Part shown: piece after piece, positions 12,881 to 23,691 of the stretch
Numbering within the stretch: position 1 is the stretch's first letter
Layout: each line of letters starts with the position of its first letter
Program-made: the position numbers and the translations under genes
Source: Candidatus Woesearchaeota archaeon
GTDB lineage: Archaea > Nanobdellota > Nanobdellia > Woesearchaeales > UBA10216
Length of the DNA stretch: 64,000 nucleotides
Assembly (NCBI GenBank): GCA_016192905.1
Contig: JACPTG010000001.1
Coordinates: 289,005-353,004 of the forward strand
Direction of reading: 5' to 3'
The notes under the pieces: model-generated
The model's input: the letters and a program-made list of their open reading frames with translations, nothing else
The model's database searches: none
What the model was told of the DNA's origin: nothing

Positions 12881-13309
12881 CTATTGCAAGGCCCAGCTGT
12901 AAATCCTCCTGTCTTCCTTCGGAATACCTGATATCATAATTGTGAACTCCTTACTATTTCCGAGGTTAAACCTCATTATCCCTGAAGCATGGTGGCCTGA
13001 AAGCTGAGGCGCTGATTCAGGAAAAATTTCCTTGCCCCCTGCAACAAGCCTTACAGCCCGCCCCAGGTCATACTGGCTCAGGTCAACCGAATGCGTATTC
13101 GCGGCAACATCAACCTCAAGCAGGCCGTTAACAAGCTGCTTTGGAGTAAGCTCTATGAGCACGTCGCCATCGCCTGTGCTCCCAGTTGACTTTGCCTCCA
13201 GACCTGCAGGTGAAACTGCTGGCGTTTCCTGCCTGGGAGGCTCGGTCGCAGCGCACCCTGCAATGAAAAGCAGGCTGAACAACAGCAACGCAGCAGCAGC
13301 CTTAAGCAT
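12881..13309 (-). CDS. Secreted lipoprotein of the copper operon
   Basis: 142 aa. A signal peptide ends in a lipobox-like FIAGCAA, so the mature protein would be lipid-anchored at the Cys outside the membrane. The rest looks beta-rich (LIELTPKQLVNGLLEVDVAANTH, SGIMRFNLGNSKEFTIMISG) like a cupredoxin-type or CopC-like fold, with several His and Met residues that could bind copper. The fold is inference. It overlaps the upstream gene by 8 bp. Confidence 0.7.
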   Translation of the reverse strand: MLKAAAALLLFSLLFIAGCAATEPPRQETPAVSPAGLEAKSTGSTGDGDVLIELTPKQLVNGLLEVDVAANTHSVDLSQYDLGRAVRLVAGGKEIFPESAPQLSGHHASGIMRFNLGNSKEFTIMISGIPKEDRRIYSWALQ

Positions 13310-13712
13310 GACATTTCCTCCTGCTTATCCTTTCCCTGATGAACAGCGCCACGCCTCCAAGGGCAACTGCCCCGCCCATAATCCACCAAAGCGGCTGAAG
13401 AGACTGGACCTGCTGAAACGGGACCCCTGCAATAATCAGCCCGGAATTAAGGATAAGAAGATTCGGCGAAATGCACCTGTGACGGGCACACATGTAAGCG
13501 GTCACTCCCAGCAGCGCCACAGCAGCCAGCCACGCAGGCACAGCTATGGTCGTAAGGAACAGCAGGGGCATGCCTGTCACGGTAATCCCGATTATCCCCA
13601 GCAGCGCTATAAGGCCCAGGCACACATTATGGCAAACCTGCCACGAGCCGAGTATGCTGGCCGCGCCTGAGGCAGCTCCTGCCGCAGTGGCAGTCTTTTC
13701 ACCGTTTTTCAT
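13302..13712 (-). CDS. Four-helix membrane protein with Cys pairs, first gene of the copper operon
   Basis: 136 aa with four hydrophobic segments. Two Cys pairs, CHNVC near the first helix and CARHRC after the third, resemble the metal-relaying pairs of MerC/MerT-type transporters, so metal movement across the membrane is plausible. It is the promoter-proximal gene, starting just below a TATA-like TATATC and the 20-bp palindrome shared with the divergent regulator. Confidence 0.7.
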   Translation of the reverse strand: MKNGEKTATAAGAASGAASILGSWQVCHNVCLGLIALLGIIGITVTGMPLLFLTTIAVPAWLAAVALLGVTAYMCARHRCISPNLLILNSGLIIAGVPFQQVQSLQPLWWIMGGAVALGGVALFIRERISRRKCHA

Positions 13713-13732: not shown

Positions 13733-13752
13733 CGAAATATTTAAATATTTCG
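13733..13752. promoter_or_regulatory. Perfect 20-bp palindrome, probable copper-operon operator
   Basis: CGAAATATTTAAATATTTCG reads the same on both strands. It overlaps the TATA region of the PadR-TRASH gene (ATG 18 bp further on) and lies about 20 bp above the divergent operon start at 13712, so one dimer could control both transcripts. Confidence 0.7.
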
Positions 13753-13769: not shown

Positions 13770-14180
13770 ATGCAGATCAACAGCCTGGTAAAGTTCTACT
13801 CCCTGCTTCTCATTGGAGAGGAACCGAAGCACGGATATGAACTCATGAAAGAGCTCCAGGCAAAGCTGGACCGGGGGATAAGCCCGTCGCAGGTCTACCC
13901 ATTCCTCGCACAGCTTGCGAAGAAGGGGCTGATTTCTGTTGAGTCAACAGGGGTGCGCGACAGGAAGACATACAGGCTTACAAAAACCGGGAAGCGCTTT
14001 GTGACCGAATTCCTCGGCAGCCTGGAAGACCTTATCTCAGCATCGGTCAAAAGCAGCCTGACAGCCTGCGCACACTGCGGATGCAAGGTGTTTGGGAAAG
14101 CCAAATCAAGGCTTGTTGGAGGAAAACAGCTAAGCTTCTGCTGCACTGCATGCGCAAAGTCCTTCAAACACAAAGTTTAG
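13770..14180 (+). CDS. PadR-type winged-helix regulator fused to a TRASH-like metal-binding domain
   Basis: 136 aa. Residues 5-85 form a PadR-like winged helix (HGYELMKEL, SPSQVYPFLAQLAKKGLI, then a RKTYRLTKTG wing). Residues 98-134 form a Cys-rich domain with C100, C103, C105, C124, C125 and C128 spaced as in TRASH/YHS-like metal sensors. TRASH domains sense copper in other archaeal regulators such as CopT-type proteins. The gene is divergent from the CopA operon across a perfect palindrome, so it is probably a copper-responsive autoregulated repressor or activator. The PadR-TRASH architecture itself is unusual. Confidence 0.85.
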   Translation: MQINSLVKFYSLLLIGEEPKHGYELMKELQAKLDRGISPSQVYPFLAQLAKKGLISVESTGVRDRKTYRLTKTGKRFVTEFLGSLEDLISASVKSSLTACAHCGCKVFGKAKSRLVGGKQLSFCCTACAKSFKHKV

Positions 14181-14290: not shown

Positions 14291-14971
14291 TTATTTCAAG
14301 CTCAAAACTGCTTTCTTATATCTCTCAAATGCCACAGGGTCAACATAGCCAAATACGCCTTGAAGGTCATTCTTGAATTGAGCGGAAGTTATTTTGGCCT
14401 CAATCTTGTGAAATGCCTTTCCAAAATCAAGCCTTTTTGAAATTTCTTCCTTAATCCACTCCTTGTCATTCGCGGTTGGCATCAGCATGAAAACATCCCT
14501 GATGTCAGGGAGCCTTGCGCAAATAAGCTTCATAACAATCAGTGCGTCTATTCTGATGATGCGTAATTTCAATGATTCGGCTATTGTTTTTCCTCTTAGC
14601 TGTCTGATTCCCGAATTATCAAAAACCCATTTGGAACTAAAGCTGCAACCTGTTTGCCTGTCAAATACTTCTCCAATCAAGATATCCACACTTACCTTGA
14701 AATCCTTATCGATCTGCTTTTCATACCTCGCGAATTTACCCTCATAAGAAAGGCTTTTATCCAATTTGACTTCACTATAGCCTGATTTTTCAAGCTCTAA
14801 GCTGATTTTCCTGGAAACAGTATAATCCCCAACAACAATATCACAATCCACTGAGAAACGAGGCAGCGCGTAAGCATTTACTGCATAGCCGCCAATCACT
14901 GCAAATTGGCAAGCCTTAATCTTTTTAAGCGCTTCAAATATCTCCTTTTCCCTAAGCTGCAGCTGGCCCAT
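14291..14971 (-). CDS. AbiEii-type nucleotidyltransferase (toxin-like)
   Basis: 226 aa. The N-terminus has IGGYAVNAYALPRFSVDCDIVV, the GG(Y/F)A...R.S.D.D pattern of AbiEii/DUF1814-type nucleotidyltransferases, followed by a helical domain. Such proteins are toxins of type IV AbiE systems and of related pairs. The start overlaps the upstream AbiEi-like gene by 20 bp. Substrate unknown; bacterial AbiEii homologues modify tRNA. Confidence 0.8.
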   Translation of the reverse strand: MGQLQLREKEIFEALKKIKACQFAVIGGYAVNAYALPRFSVDCDIVVGDYTVSRKISLELEKSGYSEVKLDKSLSYEGKFARYEKQIDKDFKVSVDILIGEVFDRQTGCSFSSKWVFDNSGIRQLRGKTIAESLKLRIIRIDALIVMKLICARLPDIRDVFMLMPTANDKEWIKEEISKRLDFGKAFHKIEAKITSAQFKNDLQGVFGYVDPVAFERYKKAVLSLK

Positions 14972-15554
14972 ATTTATCCTTCATATAGTTGTAAGCATAG
15001 GAATACATTTCATTATTTCTGGCGGTTTTTATTGTTTCTTTCAATGGCTCAACCTTTATTGTCCCTTTTTTTTCAGAATGTAACCTGCTTACAGGGATCA
15101 ATATGATAAATTCCCCTACTGTTGACCCCTGTCTAATATAATTCGGAATATCCCGCTTATTAAAGAATTCCTTCCAATACCTTATGTCCTCCCTTAATAT
15201 CTTGATAAAGTAGGGGGACCTCTCGATTCCCCTCTGGATATACGAATAATCTGACCAGATTTCAACGGCGGACAAGTTAGTGAATGCATAAGGCCTGGAT
15301 GCTTCTTTCATTAACTCAGGTACTTTAAACTCCAATAAGCCTTTCATGACCTTGACAGGATCCACGCATTTGTAGCTGTTCCTCCGTTCCTTCACAATCC
15401 ATCCGGATTTCAACAACAATGCAAAGGTCTTCTTCCTCATTGATTGCCCAACTATCCAATCCAATTCAGACTGCATAAAAGGTTCTCTTGACCCATGCCT
15501 TGAATAGAACAAGGCATAAGCTCTCAAGCAATATTGGGGGATTTCGCTTACCAT
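14952..15554 (-). CDS. AbiEi-like winged-helix antitoxin
   Basis: 200 aa. An N-terminal winged-helix part (ALLLKSGWIVKERRNSYKCVDP) precedes an alpha/beta domain (PYAFTNLSAVEIWSDY, FIILIPVSRL) as in AbiEi-type transcriptional antitoxins. Position upstream of and overlapping the nucleotidyltransferase gene fits an AbiE-type module. A perfect inverted repeat at 15567-15585 between its TATA box and start codon suggests autorepression. Confidence 0.72.
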   Translation of the reverse strand: MVSEIPQYCLRAYALFYSRHGSREPFMQSELDWIVGQSMRKKTFALLLKSGWIVKERRNSYKCVDPVKVMKGLLEFKVPELMKEASRPYAFTNLSAVEIWSDYSYIQRGIERSPYFIKILREDIRYWKEFFNKRDIPNYIRQGSTVGEFIILIPVSRLHSEKKGTIKVEPLKETIKTARNNEMYSYAYNYMKDKYGPAAA

Positions 15555-15566
15555 TATTAAAACCTT

Positions 15567-15585
15567 AGTTACCTATTAGGTAACT
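15567..15585. promoter_or_regulatory. Inverted repeat operator of the AbiE-type pair
   Basis: AGTTACCTA-T-TAGGTAACT has perfect 9-bp arms around one base. It lies between the minus-strand TATA box (ATTTATATAT, 15591-15600) and the start at 15554, so binding there would block initiation. Confidence 0.65.
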
Positions 15586-15794: not shown

Positions 15795-15965
15795 ATGTAT
15801 TACTGCAAGAACTGTGACAAGAAGGTTGAAGATCAGTACAGACTGTCCTGCTCCAGGTGCCCATACTGCAAGAAATTCATGTGCAGGGCTGCGCCTGAAG
15901 GTATTGTTTTAGCCAAAAGCCAGCAATATTTTGACTTTAAACCCTCTATTCGTTACAGGCTCTGA
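15795..15965 (+). CDS. Small zinc-ribbon protein, possible RNA polymerase subunit P remnant
   Basis: 56 aa starting MYYCKNCDKKVEDQYRLSCS. CxxC (residues 4-7) and a later CPYC with following Cys, then AAPEGIVLAKSQ, recall archaeal RpoP/Rpb12, which is about 45-60 aa. The last dozen residues do not fit the family and the following 50 bases read like a stray protein fragment (FRKMLKEKDENVGKQAL), so the 3' part may have been altered when the AT-rich dprA island joined here. It could instead be another zinc-ribbon protein. Confidence 0.45.
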   Translation: MYYCKNCDKKVEDQYRLSCSRCPYCKKFMCRAAPEGIVLAKSQQYFDFKPSIRYRL

Positions 15966-16034: not shown

Positions 16035-16970
16035 TTATACAAACGGGGCAATTTTTGATGGCAATTTTTCTTCCTTTTTCAACTTTAAAAGACTTGTAAA
16101 TATATCGTCACAATTTCTTATCTCTATCCCTTTCCATTCGTTGATTACTTGCGAAATACCTTCATTAGGTTTCAAGTTTAAAGACATTTCAGGGCAGAAA
16201 ATAGGAATTTTCTGTTCAAAAGCCATTTTAGTTTGAACCATTGCCCCCCCTCTTTCTCCACTTGCAACCATGACCAAAGCATTTGATATCCCCGAAGTAA
16301 TCCTATTCCTCTGGACTAAAGCAATATTTGAACCTGGAAAGTTAGGAAGGTGTTCAGATATTAGTAAACCTTTTTTCCCTATTTCTGTAAACAATTCCAA
16401 ATGTTTTTCTGGAAACATTTTAAAAAATCCTGAACCAAGGATGCAAATTGTCTTACCTTTAGCATCTAGAGCTCCTATATGAGCTGAATAATCAACACCG
16501 ACTGCACCTCCACTGACCACAGTAAAATCTAATTTTACCAAATCCTGTGCCAGACCATATGCCCATTTTTTGGAGTGCTCATCAGCTTTTCTGCTGCCTA
16601 CAATCGCAACTTTTTTCTTGTAAAGCAGGCCTGTATCTCCTTTTAGGAAAAGGGTCAAAGGGGGGTAAGGAATTACTTTAAGAAACGAAGGGTATTCGGG
16701 ATCAATAATTGGCAAAATCTTAATATTGTTTTCTCCGCATTCATCAATGGCTTTCAAAAAATTTTCATCTGAGGCATTCTTCAGGTTATGAAAATCTGAA
16801 AGCATTGGTTCAGAAAAGCATCTTGTTGCTAACAGTTCATTATCACTCATTGAGAAAATTTCATCAACGTTTTTTACAAGGCTGAATAATCTTAAGATTT
16901 TAACGGGACCTAACTTAGGAACTCTGGTCAGTTTAAACCACCTGACCTTTTGCTCTGTGGTCAATATCAT
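16035..16970 (-). CDS. dprA: DprA/Smf-family DNA-processing protein
   Basis: 311 aa. An N-terminal helical part is followed by the DprA Rossmann fold: VAIVGSRKADEHSKKW, VSGGAVGVDYSAHIGAL, ILGSGFFKMFPEKH and VQRNRITSGISNALVMVASGERGGAMVQT. In naturally competent bacteria DprA loads RecA on incoming single strands; related Rossmann proteins also occur in defence loci. The gene is clearly more AT-rich than its neighbours, suggesting recent acquisition. It overlaps the upstream phosphoribosyltransferase gene by 4 bp, so the two act together. Confidence 0.9.
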   Translation of the reverse strand: MILTTEQKVRWFKLTRVPKLGPVKILRLFSLVKNVDEIFSMSDNELLATRCFSEPMLSDFHNLKNASDENFLKAIDECGENNIKILPIIDPEYPSFLKVIPYPPLTLFLKGDTGLLYKKKVAIVGSRKADEHSKKWAYGLAQDLVKLDFTVVSGGAVGVDYSAHIGALDAKGKTICILGSGFFKMFPEKHLELFTEIGKKGLLISEHLPNFPGSNIALVQRNRITSGISNALVMVASGERGGAMVQTKMAFEQKIPIFCPEMSLNLKPNEGISQVINEWKGIEIRNCDDIFTSLLKLKKEEKLPSKIAPFV

Positions 16971-17596
16971 GGAGCCCTCACAATTGGCGGGTTTGAAGTA
17001 TTTGTTCCAAGAGCAAATGCAGTTACAGCTTTAGCCCCGCCCTTAAATAACACTTCTGCACATTCCAATACAGAAATCCCAGATGTTCTGATATCATCAA
17101 CAAGCAAAATAGATTTGCCTTGTGGTATCGTTGGATGGCATATGAATTTTCCATGTAAGGCCTTATACCTTTCTTCTCTTCCCCTATCAGTGCTTATGGG
17201 TCCACGAATTCTCTGAAACAACATCCCTGGTTTAGGCTTGCCAAGCTGGGCTGAAATTATGTTTGCAACGCCGATCATAGTTGGATAATACCAATTATGG
17301 CTGTTGGGAATCGGTGTGATCCAATCAATTTTTGAAAGCATCATTTCCACCTTAAAATTATTGATGCAAGATTCAACATAAGGCTTGAAAAAATCAGACT
17401 CGTCTCTGCTCTTTTCTTTGGCGTAAAGAATCCTCTTTGAATATTCATCCCATTGATGATAATGCTGTTTGAAATAATGCCTGGGAGAAACGCCCTGAAC
17501 TTCCAATCCGGGGTAAAAATCATCCTGGATAATGGAGCGGATACAGCCTCTCTCTGTCCTTTCTTCAGGTCTTTTTGGACTGGATGGAATAATCAT
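16967..17596 (-). CDS. ComF-like phosphoribosyltransferase
   Basis: 209 aa. The PRPP-binding loop ILLVDDIRTSGISVLECAEVL is close to the ComF/amidophosphoribosyltransferase type; the N-terminal part (IDWITPIPNSHNWYYPTMIGVANIIS) matches the ComF core. The long non-ComF N-terminus lacks the usual zinc finger. It is coupled to dprA by a 4-bp overlap and shares its AT-rich composition. The pair recalls DprA-PRTase associations discussed for prokaryotic conflict systems as well as competence; which applies here is open. Confidence 0.8.
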   Translation of the reverse strand: MIIPSSPKRPEERTERGCIRSIIQDDFYPGLEVQGVSPRHYFKQHYHQWDEYSKRILYAKEKSRDESDFFKPYVESCINNFKVEMMLSKIDWITPIPNSHNWYYPTMIGVANIISAQLGKPKPGMLFQRIRGPISTDRGREERYKALHGKFICHPTIPQGKSILLVDDIRTSGISVLECAEVLFKGGAKAVTAFALGTNTSNPPIVRAP

Positions 17597-17626: not shown

Positions 17627-17644
17627 AACCTAATATATTAGGTT
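17627..17644. promoter_or_regulatory. Perfect 18-bp palindrome upstream of the PRTase-dprA pair
   Basis: AACCTAATATATTAGGTT lies 31 bp before the PRTase start and contains its TATA-like centre, so a bound protein would block transcription. A T-run on the plus side could alternatively make it a hairpin terminator. The ACCTA...TAGGT arms resemble the AbiE operator at 15567. Confidence 0.5.
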
Positions 17645-17716
17645 TTTTACAAGTATATAAAGCTTCCACCCATCTGTCCAGTGTCCAGTGCTCATGGAGT
17701 TGTCCAGTGGAAGACA

Positions 17717-18176
17717 ATGGATATCTTCAAGATAAAGCTATTCCTGAAGAAAGGAGAAAACAGCCTTCTTGTTGCAAAGCATATCAAGGATTTCAAACCT
17801 TCCCATGGAGAGCCTGAGAAGCTATACTGGGACTATTGGACAATAACAATCTCATGCTATTCAATGCTATACTGCGCAAAAGCACTTATCCTGACAAAAG
17901 GCTACGAAACGCATGACCCTGATGCAGCCCAGGTTGCTTTAGGCTACCTTTGCGTTCCCGGCCACATAGAAAAGGAAGACTTGGAAATCCTTAACCAATC
18001 TTGAAGATGAATATGTCAAATATTTTGAGGATGCCAAACGGGAAAGCCATATAGCGAGGTATTCAGCAATCAAGACATACACTGAAAGAAGGCTTAATGA
18101 GATATTTGAGAATGCTAGGAAGTTTGTGGGGAAGGTGGCGGTTATATCAATGGAGAATAAACGAAAAGTAGGATAA
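17717..18176 (+). pseudogene. Frameshifted HEPN-like gene
   Basis: The first frame from the ATG at 17717 (MDIFKIKLFLKKGENSLL) reads through the HEPN-like helix YWTITISCYSMLYCAKALILTKGYETHDPDA and stops at 18002-18004. A second frame continues from about 18002 (LEDEYVKYFEDAKRESHIARYS...) to the TAA at 18176 with a sensible C-terminal helix pair, so a single indel near 18000 splits one gene of about 150 codons. No adjacent MNT partner is visible. Confidence 0.65.
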
Positions 18177-18621: not shown

Positions 18622-20139
18622 ATGAAAAAGGCGTGCCTGGCTATTCTTCTATCAATGGTTCTCGCTGCGGCAATCGCAAGCGGCGGAATAAGCATAGACA
18701 GCATCAACAAGAAGCAGCTCAACCTCGGAGACAAGCTGGCAGTATCATACAACCTGACTTCCGAAAAGGATGTCGAGGCCCTATTCAAGCTGAGCCTGAA
18801 ATGCACCAGCTTCGACTTAGATTACTACACCATACCGGTAATGGTAAAGGCAGGCTCAAACAAGAGCGTGGTAGCTGCGCCGCTCACCATCAACTCGCAA
18901 ATGATGGGCCAGTGCAGCGTCAATGCAGTGCTCCAGGCCACTGACAAGACAAGCATTGAAGAGCTTGAATCAGACAAATTTGATGTCACCAACAACATAA
19001 TCGTAAAGCTTGCAGTGCCCAGCGGGAAAGCCTACTATCCAGGGGAAAGGGTAACCATCGCCGGGGAAGTGACTGAAAGCTTCAGCCCTGCAAGAATGGT
19101 GACAATAGTCCTTGAACGCCAGACCGTAACAATGGCGATAAACTCAGAATACTTCAACCAGACAATGGAGCTTCCAAAGACAATCAAGTCAGGCCTGCAC
19201 AAAATACAGGCTGAGGTAAACGACACCCACGGCAACCGCGGCTTCGCAGAGGAAGCAATTGAAATAGCCCAGGTTCCGACAAGCATACTGATAGACATCA
19301 GCAAGGACAGGGCAAGCCCTGGCGATGAAGTGAAGATTTACACGATAATCCTCGACCAGGCGAACGACAGCATGGCAGGGACTGTATCTGTCAAGCTCAC
19401 AAGCCAGGACAAGAAAGAACTCCTCAGCATGGAAGTGGACAGCCACGAGCTGTTCAAATACAAATTTGACGAGTACGCTGCTCCAGGGGTGTACACCCTC
19501 AGGGCTGCCAGCCAGGGCCTCAAGAACGAGAAGAAGATAATAATAACCACCGTGGAAGAGGCCACAGCCAGCTTTGACGGCCAAAGGATAATAACGGTTA
19601 AGAACACAGGAAACGTGCCCTACGAAAGGCAATTTGAAACAAGGCTTACATCAGAAGCAGGCGAAATTCCAATAGGCAAAAACCTCAATCTCCAGCCAGG
19701 CCAGGAAACAAAAGTGGACCTCTTCCAGGAAGCGCCAGCCGGAACCTACAAGGTAAGCTTCACATCAGCCGGGCAGAGAATGGAATACCCGGGCATAACA
19801 ACAAGGGACGAGCGAAACCTCGGCAAGAAAACCATGGACGGGCTGGGAGGAATAACAGGAGCTGTATTCGGAACAGGCTCAACCAAAGGAATAATCTTCA
19901 GGAAGCCAATACTGGCCTTATTCACAGTGCTCGCAATAGTGGTCCTGGTGGTGATAGTCTTCCAAAGCGAGCAGAACAGGAGAAAAGAGCTGCTGAAGAA
20001 AAAGCAGGAAGAGGCAGCAATGCAGAACAAGCTGCAGGAAGAGATACAAACTGTGGCAAAGGAAGACAGCCTCAGCCTTGACAGGGAAAAACACCAGAAA
20101 TTCGTCCAGAACATGCTAAAGGAGAAGGAGTTCAAGTAA
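18622..20139 (+). CDS. Membrane-anchored secreted beta-sandwich protein
   Basis: 505 aa. A signal peptide (MKKACLAILLSMVLAAAIASG) is followed by about 400 residues of extracytoplasmic Ig-like/CARDB-type beta domains (LGDKLAVSYNLTSEKDVEAL, YYPGERVTIAGEVTESF, ASPGDEVKIYTIILDQ), one transmembrane helix (ILALFTVLAIVVLVVIVF, about 434-452) and a charged cytoplasmic coiled coil (QNRRKELLKKKQEEAA). The layout is a type I surface protein seen in many archaeal envelopes. The function is unknown. A TATA box lies about 25-30 bp upstream. Confidence 0.8.
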   Translation: MKKACLAILLSMVLAAAIASGGISIDSINKKQLNLGDKLAVSYNLTSEKDVEALFKLSLKCTSFDLDYYTIPVMVKAGSNKSVVAAPLTINSQMMGQCSVNAVLQATDKTSIEELESDKFDVTNNIIVKLAVPSGKAYYPGERVTIAGEVTESFSPARMVTIVLERQTVTMAINSEYFNQTMELPKTIKSGLHKIQAEVNDTHGNRGFAEEAIEIAQVPTSILIDISKDRASPGDEVKIYTIILDQANDSMAGTVSVKLTSQDKKELLSMEVDSHELFKYKFDEYAAPGVYTLRAASQGLKNEKKIIITTVEEATASFDGQRIITVKNTGNVPYERQFETRLTSEAGEIPIGKNLNLQPGQETKVDLFQEAPAGTYKVSFTSAGQRMEYPGITTRDERNLGKKTMDGLGGITGAVFGTGSTKGIIFRKPILALFTVLAIVVLVVIVFQSEQNRRKELLKKKQEEAAMQNKLQEEIQTVAKEDSLSLDREKHQKFVQNMLKEKEFK

Positions 20140-23095: not shown

Positions 23096-23449
23096 CTACT
23101 TAACAAATTCAACATGTGGAATATCCTTAAACGCAGAGTCCCCAGTAAGGAATATGCTACCTGTCTTCAGCGCAGCCATGTATCCAATTGCATCTGCGTA
23201 TGATATATCCCTTTTCCTGTTTCTGTGCCTGAATTCAGCTGCCTCAACCAGCCATCCATCATCAACCTCCACCCTGTATTTAAAGAAAAATCCGAGCTTT
23301 TCCCTGTCAACACCCGCCTTAACCAAGTAGTAAGCGAACTCAAGCAGATTGAAGACAGAAGTACAGCATTCCCCATCAAGATATTTCGCATAGGCAGAAT
23401 TGCCGTTAGCGATTTCCACCAGTGCGTATGAGTCTAGAAAGCTTTTCAT
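23096..23449 (-). CDS. vapC: PIN-domain toxin, VapC type
   Basis: 117 aa. PIN RNase fold with acidic residues D6, E37, D86 and D104 in the expected places (FLDSYALVEI, NLLEFAYYL, ISYADAIGY, FLTGDSAF). VapC toxins cut tRNA or rRNA. It overlaps the upstream AbrB-type antitoxin gene by 44 bp. Confidence 0.88.
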   Translation of the reverse strand: MKSFLDSYALVEIANGNSAYAKYLDGECCTSVFNLLEFAYYLVKAGVDREKLGFFFKYRVEVDDGWLVEAAEFRHRNRKRDISYADAIGYMAALKTGSIFLTGDSAFKDIPHVEFVK

Positions 23450-23666
23450 CCCGACGCTTATCCTCTTCCCTTATCTCATCCTTCATTTTCTGCGCATCGA
23501 TTTCACGCCCCTTCAAGATGCCAAAAAGGGCCTTCAGCGTCATGGCTGGCCTGATGTCAACAGAAACCTCATCCCCTTCCCTCAGGTTCTGGCTCCTGAT
23601 TAACTTACTAGGTATAACTATCCCCAGCGAGCTGCCCCAGTTCCTGAGCTTTGCCCTTGCAATCAT
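23406..23666 (-). CDS. vapB: AbrB-family antitoxin, VapB type
   Basis: 86 aa from the ATG at 23666 (MIARAKLRNWGSSLGIVIPS). The N-terminal SpoVT/AbrB swapped-hairpin fold (WGSSLGIVIPSKLIRSQNLREGDEV) binds DNA, and the charged helical tail should wrap VapC. An upstream in-frame ATG at 23684 lies inside the operator, so 23666, about 25 bp from a TATA-like TAAATATTA, is the better, leaderless start. Confidence 0.87.
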   Translation of the reverse strand: MIARAKLRNWGSSLGIVIPSKLIRSQNLREGDEVSVDIRPAMTLKALFGILKGREIDAQKMKDEIREEDKRRDEKLSRLIRTGGNR

Positions 23667-23672
23667 AGTTAG

Positions 23673-23691
23673 ATTAGATGTCATATCTAAT
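23673..23691. promoter_or_regulatory. Inverted-repeat operator of vapBC
   Basis: ATTAGAT-GTCAT-ATCTAAT: perfect 7-bp arms, 5-bp spacer, between TATA box and vapB start. The position fits autorepression by the VapBC complex. Confidence 0.6.

Follow-up and report, generated by a model that had tools for sequence, protein, structure and literature searches.

A DprA–phosphoribosyltransferase gene pair behind a palindrome with a recurring core in a Woesearchaeal genome: a likely ShosTA/PsyrTA-like toxin–antitoxin module

The window analysed here, a stretch of 64,000 nucleotides, is part of a 1.43 Mb Woesearchaeal genome in six contigs (G000), and carries two overlapping genes, for a phosphoribosyltransferase (PRTase) and a DprA-like protein, which we consider likely to form a ShosTA/PsyrTA-like toxin–antitoxin module: most likely an abortive infection system in which the PRTase is the toxin and the DprA-like protein the antitoxin, with a palindromic operator and horizontal spread among DPANN archaea. 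The observations behind this reading are the pairing of the genes, kinship in fold and family, a conserved PRPP-binding motif, a conserved operator core, a patchy distribution and the absence of ComEC. The defence systems of DPANN archaea are, to our knowledge, still poorly known, and we know of no clear role so far for DprA in archaea without competence genes. By position in the window, the features are:

14291–14971, minus strand: AbiEii-like nucleotidyltransferase, a weak match under the Pfam cut-off, in the AT-rich block with the pair
14952–15554, minus strand: possible AbiEi-like partner of the preceding gene, with no family match and named from position alone
16035–16970, minus strand: DprA gene, 311 aa, a DprA/ShosA-like SLOG Rossmann protein, putative antitoxin and DNA-binding sensor
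16967–16970, minus strand: 4-bp overlap (ATGA) of the PRTase and DprA genes
16967–17596, minus strand: PRTase gene, 209 aa, a ComF/ShosT-like phosphoribosyltransferase, putative toxin
17627–17644, no strand: perfect 18-bp palindrome AACCTAATATATTAGGTT, putative operator
17654–17661, minus strand: TATA box TTTATATA of the PRTase–DprA operon, assigned from sequence
17675–17690, minus strand: apparent upstream promoter element CACTGGACACTGGACA, with a third CACTGGACA at 17701–17709
17720–18176, plus strand: broken HEPN-like gene diverging from the pair, in two pieces in different frames

The original prediction described the two reading frames, their 4-bp overlap and a composition AT-richer than the surroundings, and all three descriptions are accurate. 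The PRTase gene comes first and the DprA gene second, the ATGA overlap suggests translational coupling, and the GC content is 0.382 in the pair vs 0.493 in the remaining window (38% vs 49%), a value undercut by one of 625 sliding stretches of the pair's size. The AT-rich block, at about 14.2–18.2 kb, is wider than the pair, and also holds the AbiEii-like nucleotidyltransferase with its partner gene and the broken HEPN-like gene, of which the second piece alone matches PF05168 (E 0.014, under the cut-off). AbiE is described as enriched in DPANN archaea in a 2026 survey of archaeal immunity (PMC12988326).

Several other elements lie nearby. Upstream of the gene at 14952–15554 (minus strand), and just past the TATA box of the AbiE-like operon, is the palindrome AGTTACCTAATAGGTAACT (15567–15585), with 9-bp perfect arms, a length reached by 2 of 300 shuffles; the half-site, ACCTA, is similar to the one in the PRTase operator. 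Between the gene at 13302–13712 (minus strand) and a PadR/TRASH regulator starting at 13770 (plus strand) lies a perfect 20-bp palindrome, CGAAATATTTAAATATTTCG (13733–13752), likely the operator of that regulator. A 56-aa zinc-ribbon ORF at 15795–15965 (plus strand) resembles, by eye, subunit P of RNA polymerase, but its Pfam matches are weak zinc-ribbon ones only, and genes for a PIN-domain protein and a MazE-type antitoxin (VapBC-like) are found at 23096–23684 (minus strand).

The DprA-like protein belongs clearly to its family (Pfam PF02481, 183 bits), and ShosA outscores the other defence profiles of PADLOC (3e-56, vs 1.6e-30 for PsyrA). Its sequence matches in the PDB are the S. pneumoniae DprA (3uqz) and an entry named “DprA-like antitoxin protein ShosA” (9vzo). 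The same kinship appears in the predicted structure (pLDDT 84.7), for which the best folds are DprA 3maj (Z 27.6), DprA 3uqz (Z 26.0) and ShosA 8zva (Z 23.8).

The PRTase is more distant from its relatives. Its PADLOC matches to PsyrT (3.5e-10) and ShosT (2e-9; 35.7 bits, weak) are nearly tied, and all seven PRTases in our alignment match both profiles; the Pfam Pribosyltran match (20.8 bits) is below the cut-off. A model built from the seven-row alignment (pLDDT 82.2) has as its top fold the H. pylori ComF (7p0h; Z 14.2, 3.2 Å over 166 aligned residues), followed by ShosT (8zvd, Z 12.6, 4.0 Å over 177; 8zvc, Z 12.5; 8zvb, Z 10.3), with other PRTases from Z 9.9 downward. The PRPP-binding motif reads ILLVDDIRTSG, its DD and final G being invariant across the seven aligned rows, and the PRPP loop is altered in two relatives (KVGG in L012, KAEG in L013). 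The prediction of a ComF-like PRTase without a zinc finger holds: comF is the best NCBIfam match (41 bits vs a cut-off of 233.55), and the ComF-type zinc finger is absent because the PRTase sequence contains no CxxC pairs.

Within its 209 residues the window PRTase has the PRTase domain only, with neither a HAD nor a helicase domain. In two of the phage ShosT proteins examined, from a P2-like phage and a Pf-phage, a HAD region lies N-terminal to the PRTase (a HAD match in L086; one under the cut-off in L082), and proteins without HAD, that of phage Mana for example, also fall under the shorter ShosT profile of PADLOC. Any HAD-borne activity would therefore be missing from the window PRTase, and this would include the pyrophosphatase activity that a review credits to ShosT, if it is borne by the HAD region. 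Such a minimal PRTase raises the question of which ShosT activity suffices for toxicity.

In bacteria, a DprA–PRTase pair protects E. coli from T7 and lambda, and the same source names DprA homologues as the antitoxins of shosTA and rqlHI (PMC9122126). The toxic PRTase domain of RqlH is bound and kept in check by RqlI, a DprA-like protein (PMC4670107). According to a 2025 review citing Pu et al. 2025 (PMC12593503), ShosT combines PRTase and pyrophosphatase, disturbs purine metabolism and damages DNA, while ShosA binds DNA and the T7 protein Gp0.7 triggers ShosTA. Because of the analogy with ShosTA and RqlHI, we assign the toxin role to the window PRTase and the antitoxin role to its DprA; toxicity, neutralisation, DNA binding and defence are all carried over from these bacterial relatives. 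The PRTase would bind PRPP and, once released, would disturb nucleotide pools and, through them, the integrity of DNA. It would be restrained by the DprA-like protein, probably through direct contact. The DprA-like protein probably binds DNA as well, and the toxin may then be freed by abnormal DNA or when virus attack shuts down host expression. The operon, with its TATA promoter and the palindrome just downstream, would be repressed by the module's own product or products.

The pairing recurs across the group. Among 59 related genomes, DprA is found in three (G000, G058 and G013), each time with the PRTase directly before it, and is absent from the closest relatives; a fourth genome has a PRTase match alone, and a weak one (8.5e-4). 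A scan of genome_contigs with DprA gave eight loci, six archaeal and two bacterial. In all six archaeal loci, two of which are those of G058 and G013 again, the PRTase directly precedes DprA; in the two bacterial loci (L016, L017), dprA is followed by topA and has no PRTase next to it. Those archaeal relatives of the window DprA that carry a name comprise four Woesearchaeota, one Micrarchaeota and one unplaced archaeon.

Two censuses extend this. Counting as strong a DprA of at least 100 bits, which drops 22 of the 38 genomes matching PF02481 (short Rossmann stretches below 33 bits), 16 of 371 genomes in the phylum have one, and a PRTase is adjacent in 15; the sixteenth (L024) lies at a contig edge, with 138 bases upstream in the stretch. 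The order census (352 genomes) gave 18 strong DprA, eight of them new, with an adjacent PRTase in six of the eight (one, L095, frame-broken). Taken together, 21 of 24 strong DprA genes stand beside a PRTase, the rest being the contig-edge case and two dprA–topA contigs of bacterial type (L090, L091) inside two archaeal MAGs, which are probably contamination. The architectures are PRTase then DprA; DprA then PRTase (L023, L028, L094); a RecQ–PRTase fusion then DprA (L032, L033); a zinc-finger PRTase then DprA (L021); and DprA then a HAD–PRTase fusion, the last in three Woesearchaeal genomes (L030, L096, L097) and in reversed order with respect to the ShosTA of the Pf-phage.

The same pairing occurs in phages and plasmids. 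DprA matches were found in 35 phage and 234 plasmid records. Eight of these records were hand-picked, from which no rate can be derived, and six of the eight have DprA next to a gene for a PRTase or RecQ: a P2-like phage, Burkholderia phage Mana, Gordonia phage Vasanti, a Halopiger plasmid (in the order integrase, ComF protein, DprA), Pseudomonas phage PfAC02a, whose depositor labels the pair ShosT/ShosA, and an E. coli plasmid with DprA and a RecQ-family helicase. The Legionella and Acinetobacter records show chromosome-like contexts with no PRTase by DprA. Searching phages and plasmids with the window PRTase gave weak, partial matches only, and a scan of viral_contigs with the DprA alignment gave 67 candidate stretches, none of them confirmed.

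DprA and ComF are families of competence proteins in bacteria, and the pair could on that ground be a remnant of natural competence, with DprA protecting incoming single-stranded DNA and the ComF-like PRTase aiding uptake, as happens in bacteria that transform. The top fold of the PRTase model and its best NCBIfam match, both ComF, point the same way, the latter at 41 bits far under its cut-off. Against this stand the missing zinc finger, a tree in which the canonical DprA rows group by themselves (99/99), apart from the clade of the window protein, and ComEC, which was found in none of 98 genomes, G000 included, and in 10 of 14 control genomes. A competence remnant is thus highly improbable. 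Co-occurrence with a complete pilus/ComEC uptake system had been named as the finding that would count against the original prediction, and for ComEC the search of the 98 genomes was negative; the remark that no other competence genes are seen extends, for ComEC, to the whole of G000. Of the two roles offered at the time, DNA uptake is not supported, the DprA genes of this group going with PRTases and not with uptake genes. The mobile defence module gains support from the ShosA/ShosT and PsyrA/PsyrT matches, the pairing in phages and plasmids, the patchy distribution (3 of 59) and a GC content unlike that of the flanks in several genomes. With DprA tied to PRTases in this DPANN group, what looked like an “orphan competence gene” becomes a probable component of a toxin–antitoxin defence module, and its annotation as a DNA uptake protein calls for caution.

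In the DprA tree (26 rows), the window protein falls in a DPANN clade of ten PRTase-then-DprA loci (92/84), with an inner group of seven (99/95) and the Micrarchaeota row nested in the clade. The DPANN rows with the opposite gene order (L023, L028) group with phage Mana (92/85). These separate positions suggest that such modules entered the DPANN group at least twice. Horizontal spread among DPANN archaea is likely. The helicase flanking the pair is 82% identical in G007, which has no DprA despite this, and 71% identical in G013; the window DprA is closer to that of G058 (69%) than to that of G013 (51%), which is of the same family, a one-sided comparison because G058 has no full-length copy of the helicase. 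The pair has a lower GC content than its flanks in six of seven loci, by more than 0.10 in four (window, L011, L012, L015), and equals them in L010.

DprA-family proteins act in recombination, and a housekeeping or DNA-repair pair, in which a PRTase of nucleotide salvage is linked with a DprA-like mediator of recombination and does not act as a toxin, would suit that activity as well as the PRPP motif kept in the window PRTase. We regard this as unlikely, given the presence in only three of 59 relatives and not the closest ones, the AT-rich composition against the flanks, and the divergence of the PRTase, which is far faster than that of DprA (32% vs 70% identity between the window and L013) and therefore odd for a housekeeping pair. 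An exchange of partners between the window and L013 was considered as well and is unsupported: the PRTase tree does not contradict a group of window, L010 and L013 (support 49/28).

A selfish addiction module, that is, a true toxin–antitoxin pair that stabilises its own DNA with no part in virus defence, would explain the shared AT-rich block with the AbiE-like operon and the broken HEPN gene, and the integrase adjoining the Halopiger plasmid pair. The window holds no tRNA genes, the block is flanked by no direct repeats of at least 13 bp, and no integrase is among its identified genes; moreover, the tested bacterial DprA–PRTase system protects against phage (PMC9122126). We find pure addiction doubtful. 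The exact empty site or insertion point was not found in eight stretches from relatives, in which the left flank is unshared; in five of the eight the right-flank genes at 18622 and 20183 stand together, free of the island.

The defence module that we favour would be held silent from its own promoter. Reading 5′ to 3′, CACTGGACACTGGACA, the TATA box, the palindrome and the ATG of the PRTase follow one another. The palindrome, anticipated upstream of the pair, is indeed perfect over 18 bp, and shuffling the 120 bp upstream of the pair 300 times never gave an equal arm. Its core, CTAATATATTAG, recurs upstream of the PRTase with no mismatch in the window, L010, L011 and L013 and with one in L012, a match quality in these five Woesearchaeal loci reached by 0–2 of 2000 shuffles; L014 is marginal (two mismatches, 72 of 2000), and L015 is at chance level (three mismatches, 658 of 2000). 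L010, L011 and L012 each have a second copy 19 bp away, and L014 has a weaker second copy. As the five core-bearing loci share 50–70% identity in DprA and 23–45% in PRTase, we infer that the core would hardly persist without selection.

The core recurs past the TATA box before the PRTase in five loci, and the operon is therefore probably autoregulated; the place of the palindrome, just past the TATA promoter, fits repression by one or more products of the module itself. G000 holds no second copy of the palindrome within three mismatches, as would be expected if the module encodes the regulator. On the other side, no recognised DNA-binding domain with the specificity that the palindrome calls for is seen in DprA or in the PRTase. 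As a genome-wide marker the exact 14-mer fails, being present in five of 371 genomes vs six for the backward control, with the three hits outside G000 and G058 all away from DprA, so the case for an operator rests on position. The operator-like 14-mer of G385 (L059, around 1421–1640) lies inside what, by eye, resembles an intron-bearing tRNA gene. Our literature searches, aimed at other aspects, returned no earlier report of a conserved operator in DprA–PRTase pairs, and the recurrence of the core across DPANN PRTase loci is new here.

More tentatively, the DprA–PRTase complex could itself be the sequence-specific repressor of its operon, sitting on CTAATATATTAG past the TATA box and letting go when DprA is drawn to viral single-stranded DNA or when the PRTase responds to a shift in the pool of PRPP or purines; antitoxin, sensor and repressor would then be joined in one complex. 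This possibility, if true, would give the DprA family a new role and define an operator-controlled DPANN branch of ShosTA; in any case, the conserved operator offers a direct handle for testing how the module stays silent.

The upstream element CACTGGACACTGGACA is tandem with a 7-bp period and occurs in 15 exact copies in G000 and is present in 28 of the 59 relatives, with none for the backward control. A TATA-like box follows 13 of 14 tandem arrays in G000 at +13 to +18 (shuffle mean 0.24, maximum 3), a range chosen, together with two added TATA spellings, after seeing the data, the first range of +18 to +30 having given 0 of 14. Single or tandem, CACTGGACA also precedes the PRTase in L010, L011, L012 and L018. 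CACTGGACACTGGACA looks like a Woesearchaeal promoter upstream element, on which one literature search found nothing.

Among known systems, the competence proteins DprA and ComF share the folds of the window pair, which differs in having no dprA–topA context, no ComF zinc finger and no ComEC in the host. The Halopiger xanaduensis plasmid pair (NC_015658) is likewise archaeal and has the same order, a PRTase (ComF family protein) then DprA, with 38% identity in DprA; unlike the window pair, it adjoins an integrase on a haloarchaeal plasmid, its PRTase is only 22% identical and its DprA lies outside the DPANN clade. PsyrTA/RqlHI, a RecQ–PRTase with a DprA-like protein, shares both protein types, the PRTase end of the PsyrT profile matching the window PRTase, which has no RecQ helicase, although the class has RecQ–PRTase forms elsewhere (L032, L033). 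Closest is ShosTA from the P2-like phage hotspot of E. coli (PDB 8zva–8zvd): a two-gene DprA/PRTase operon, with a DprA of the ShosA type in fold and sequence and a PRTase fold with a PRPP motif. It differs in gene order (DprA first in the P2-like phage, PRTase first in the window) and in the PRTase, which has 424 aa in the P2-like phage vs 209 aa without HAD in the window, with a weak sequence match; the window type, furthermore, has a palindromic operator conserved among Woesearchaea. A word search finds no mention of ShosTA or PsyrTA in the main text of the 2026 archaeal immunity survey (PMC12988326), nor of Shos or Psyr in that of an aquifer defensome paper; ShosTA is listed among the systems more frequent in Asgard archaea (PMC11291487). 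ShosTA has thus already been reported in archaea, and the window pair is probably a DPANN clade variant of it, with a PRTase that lacks the HAD region of the phage ShosT.
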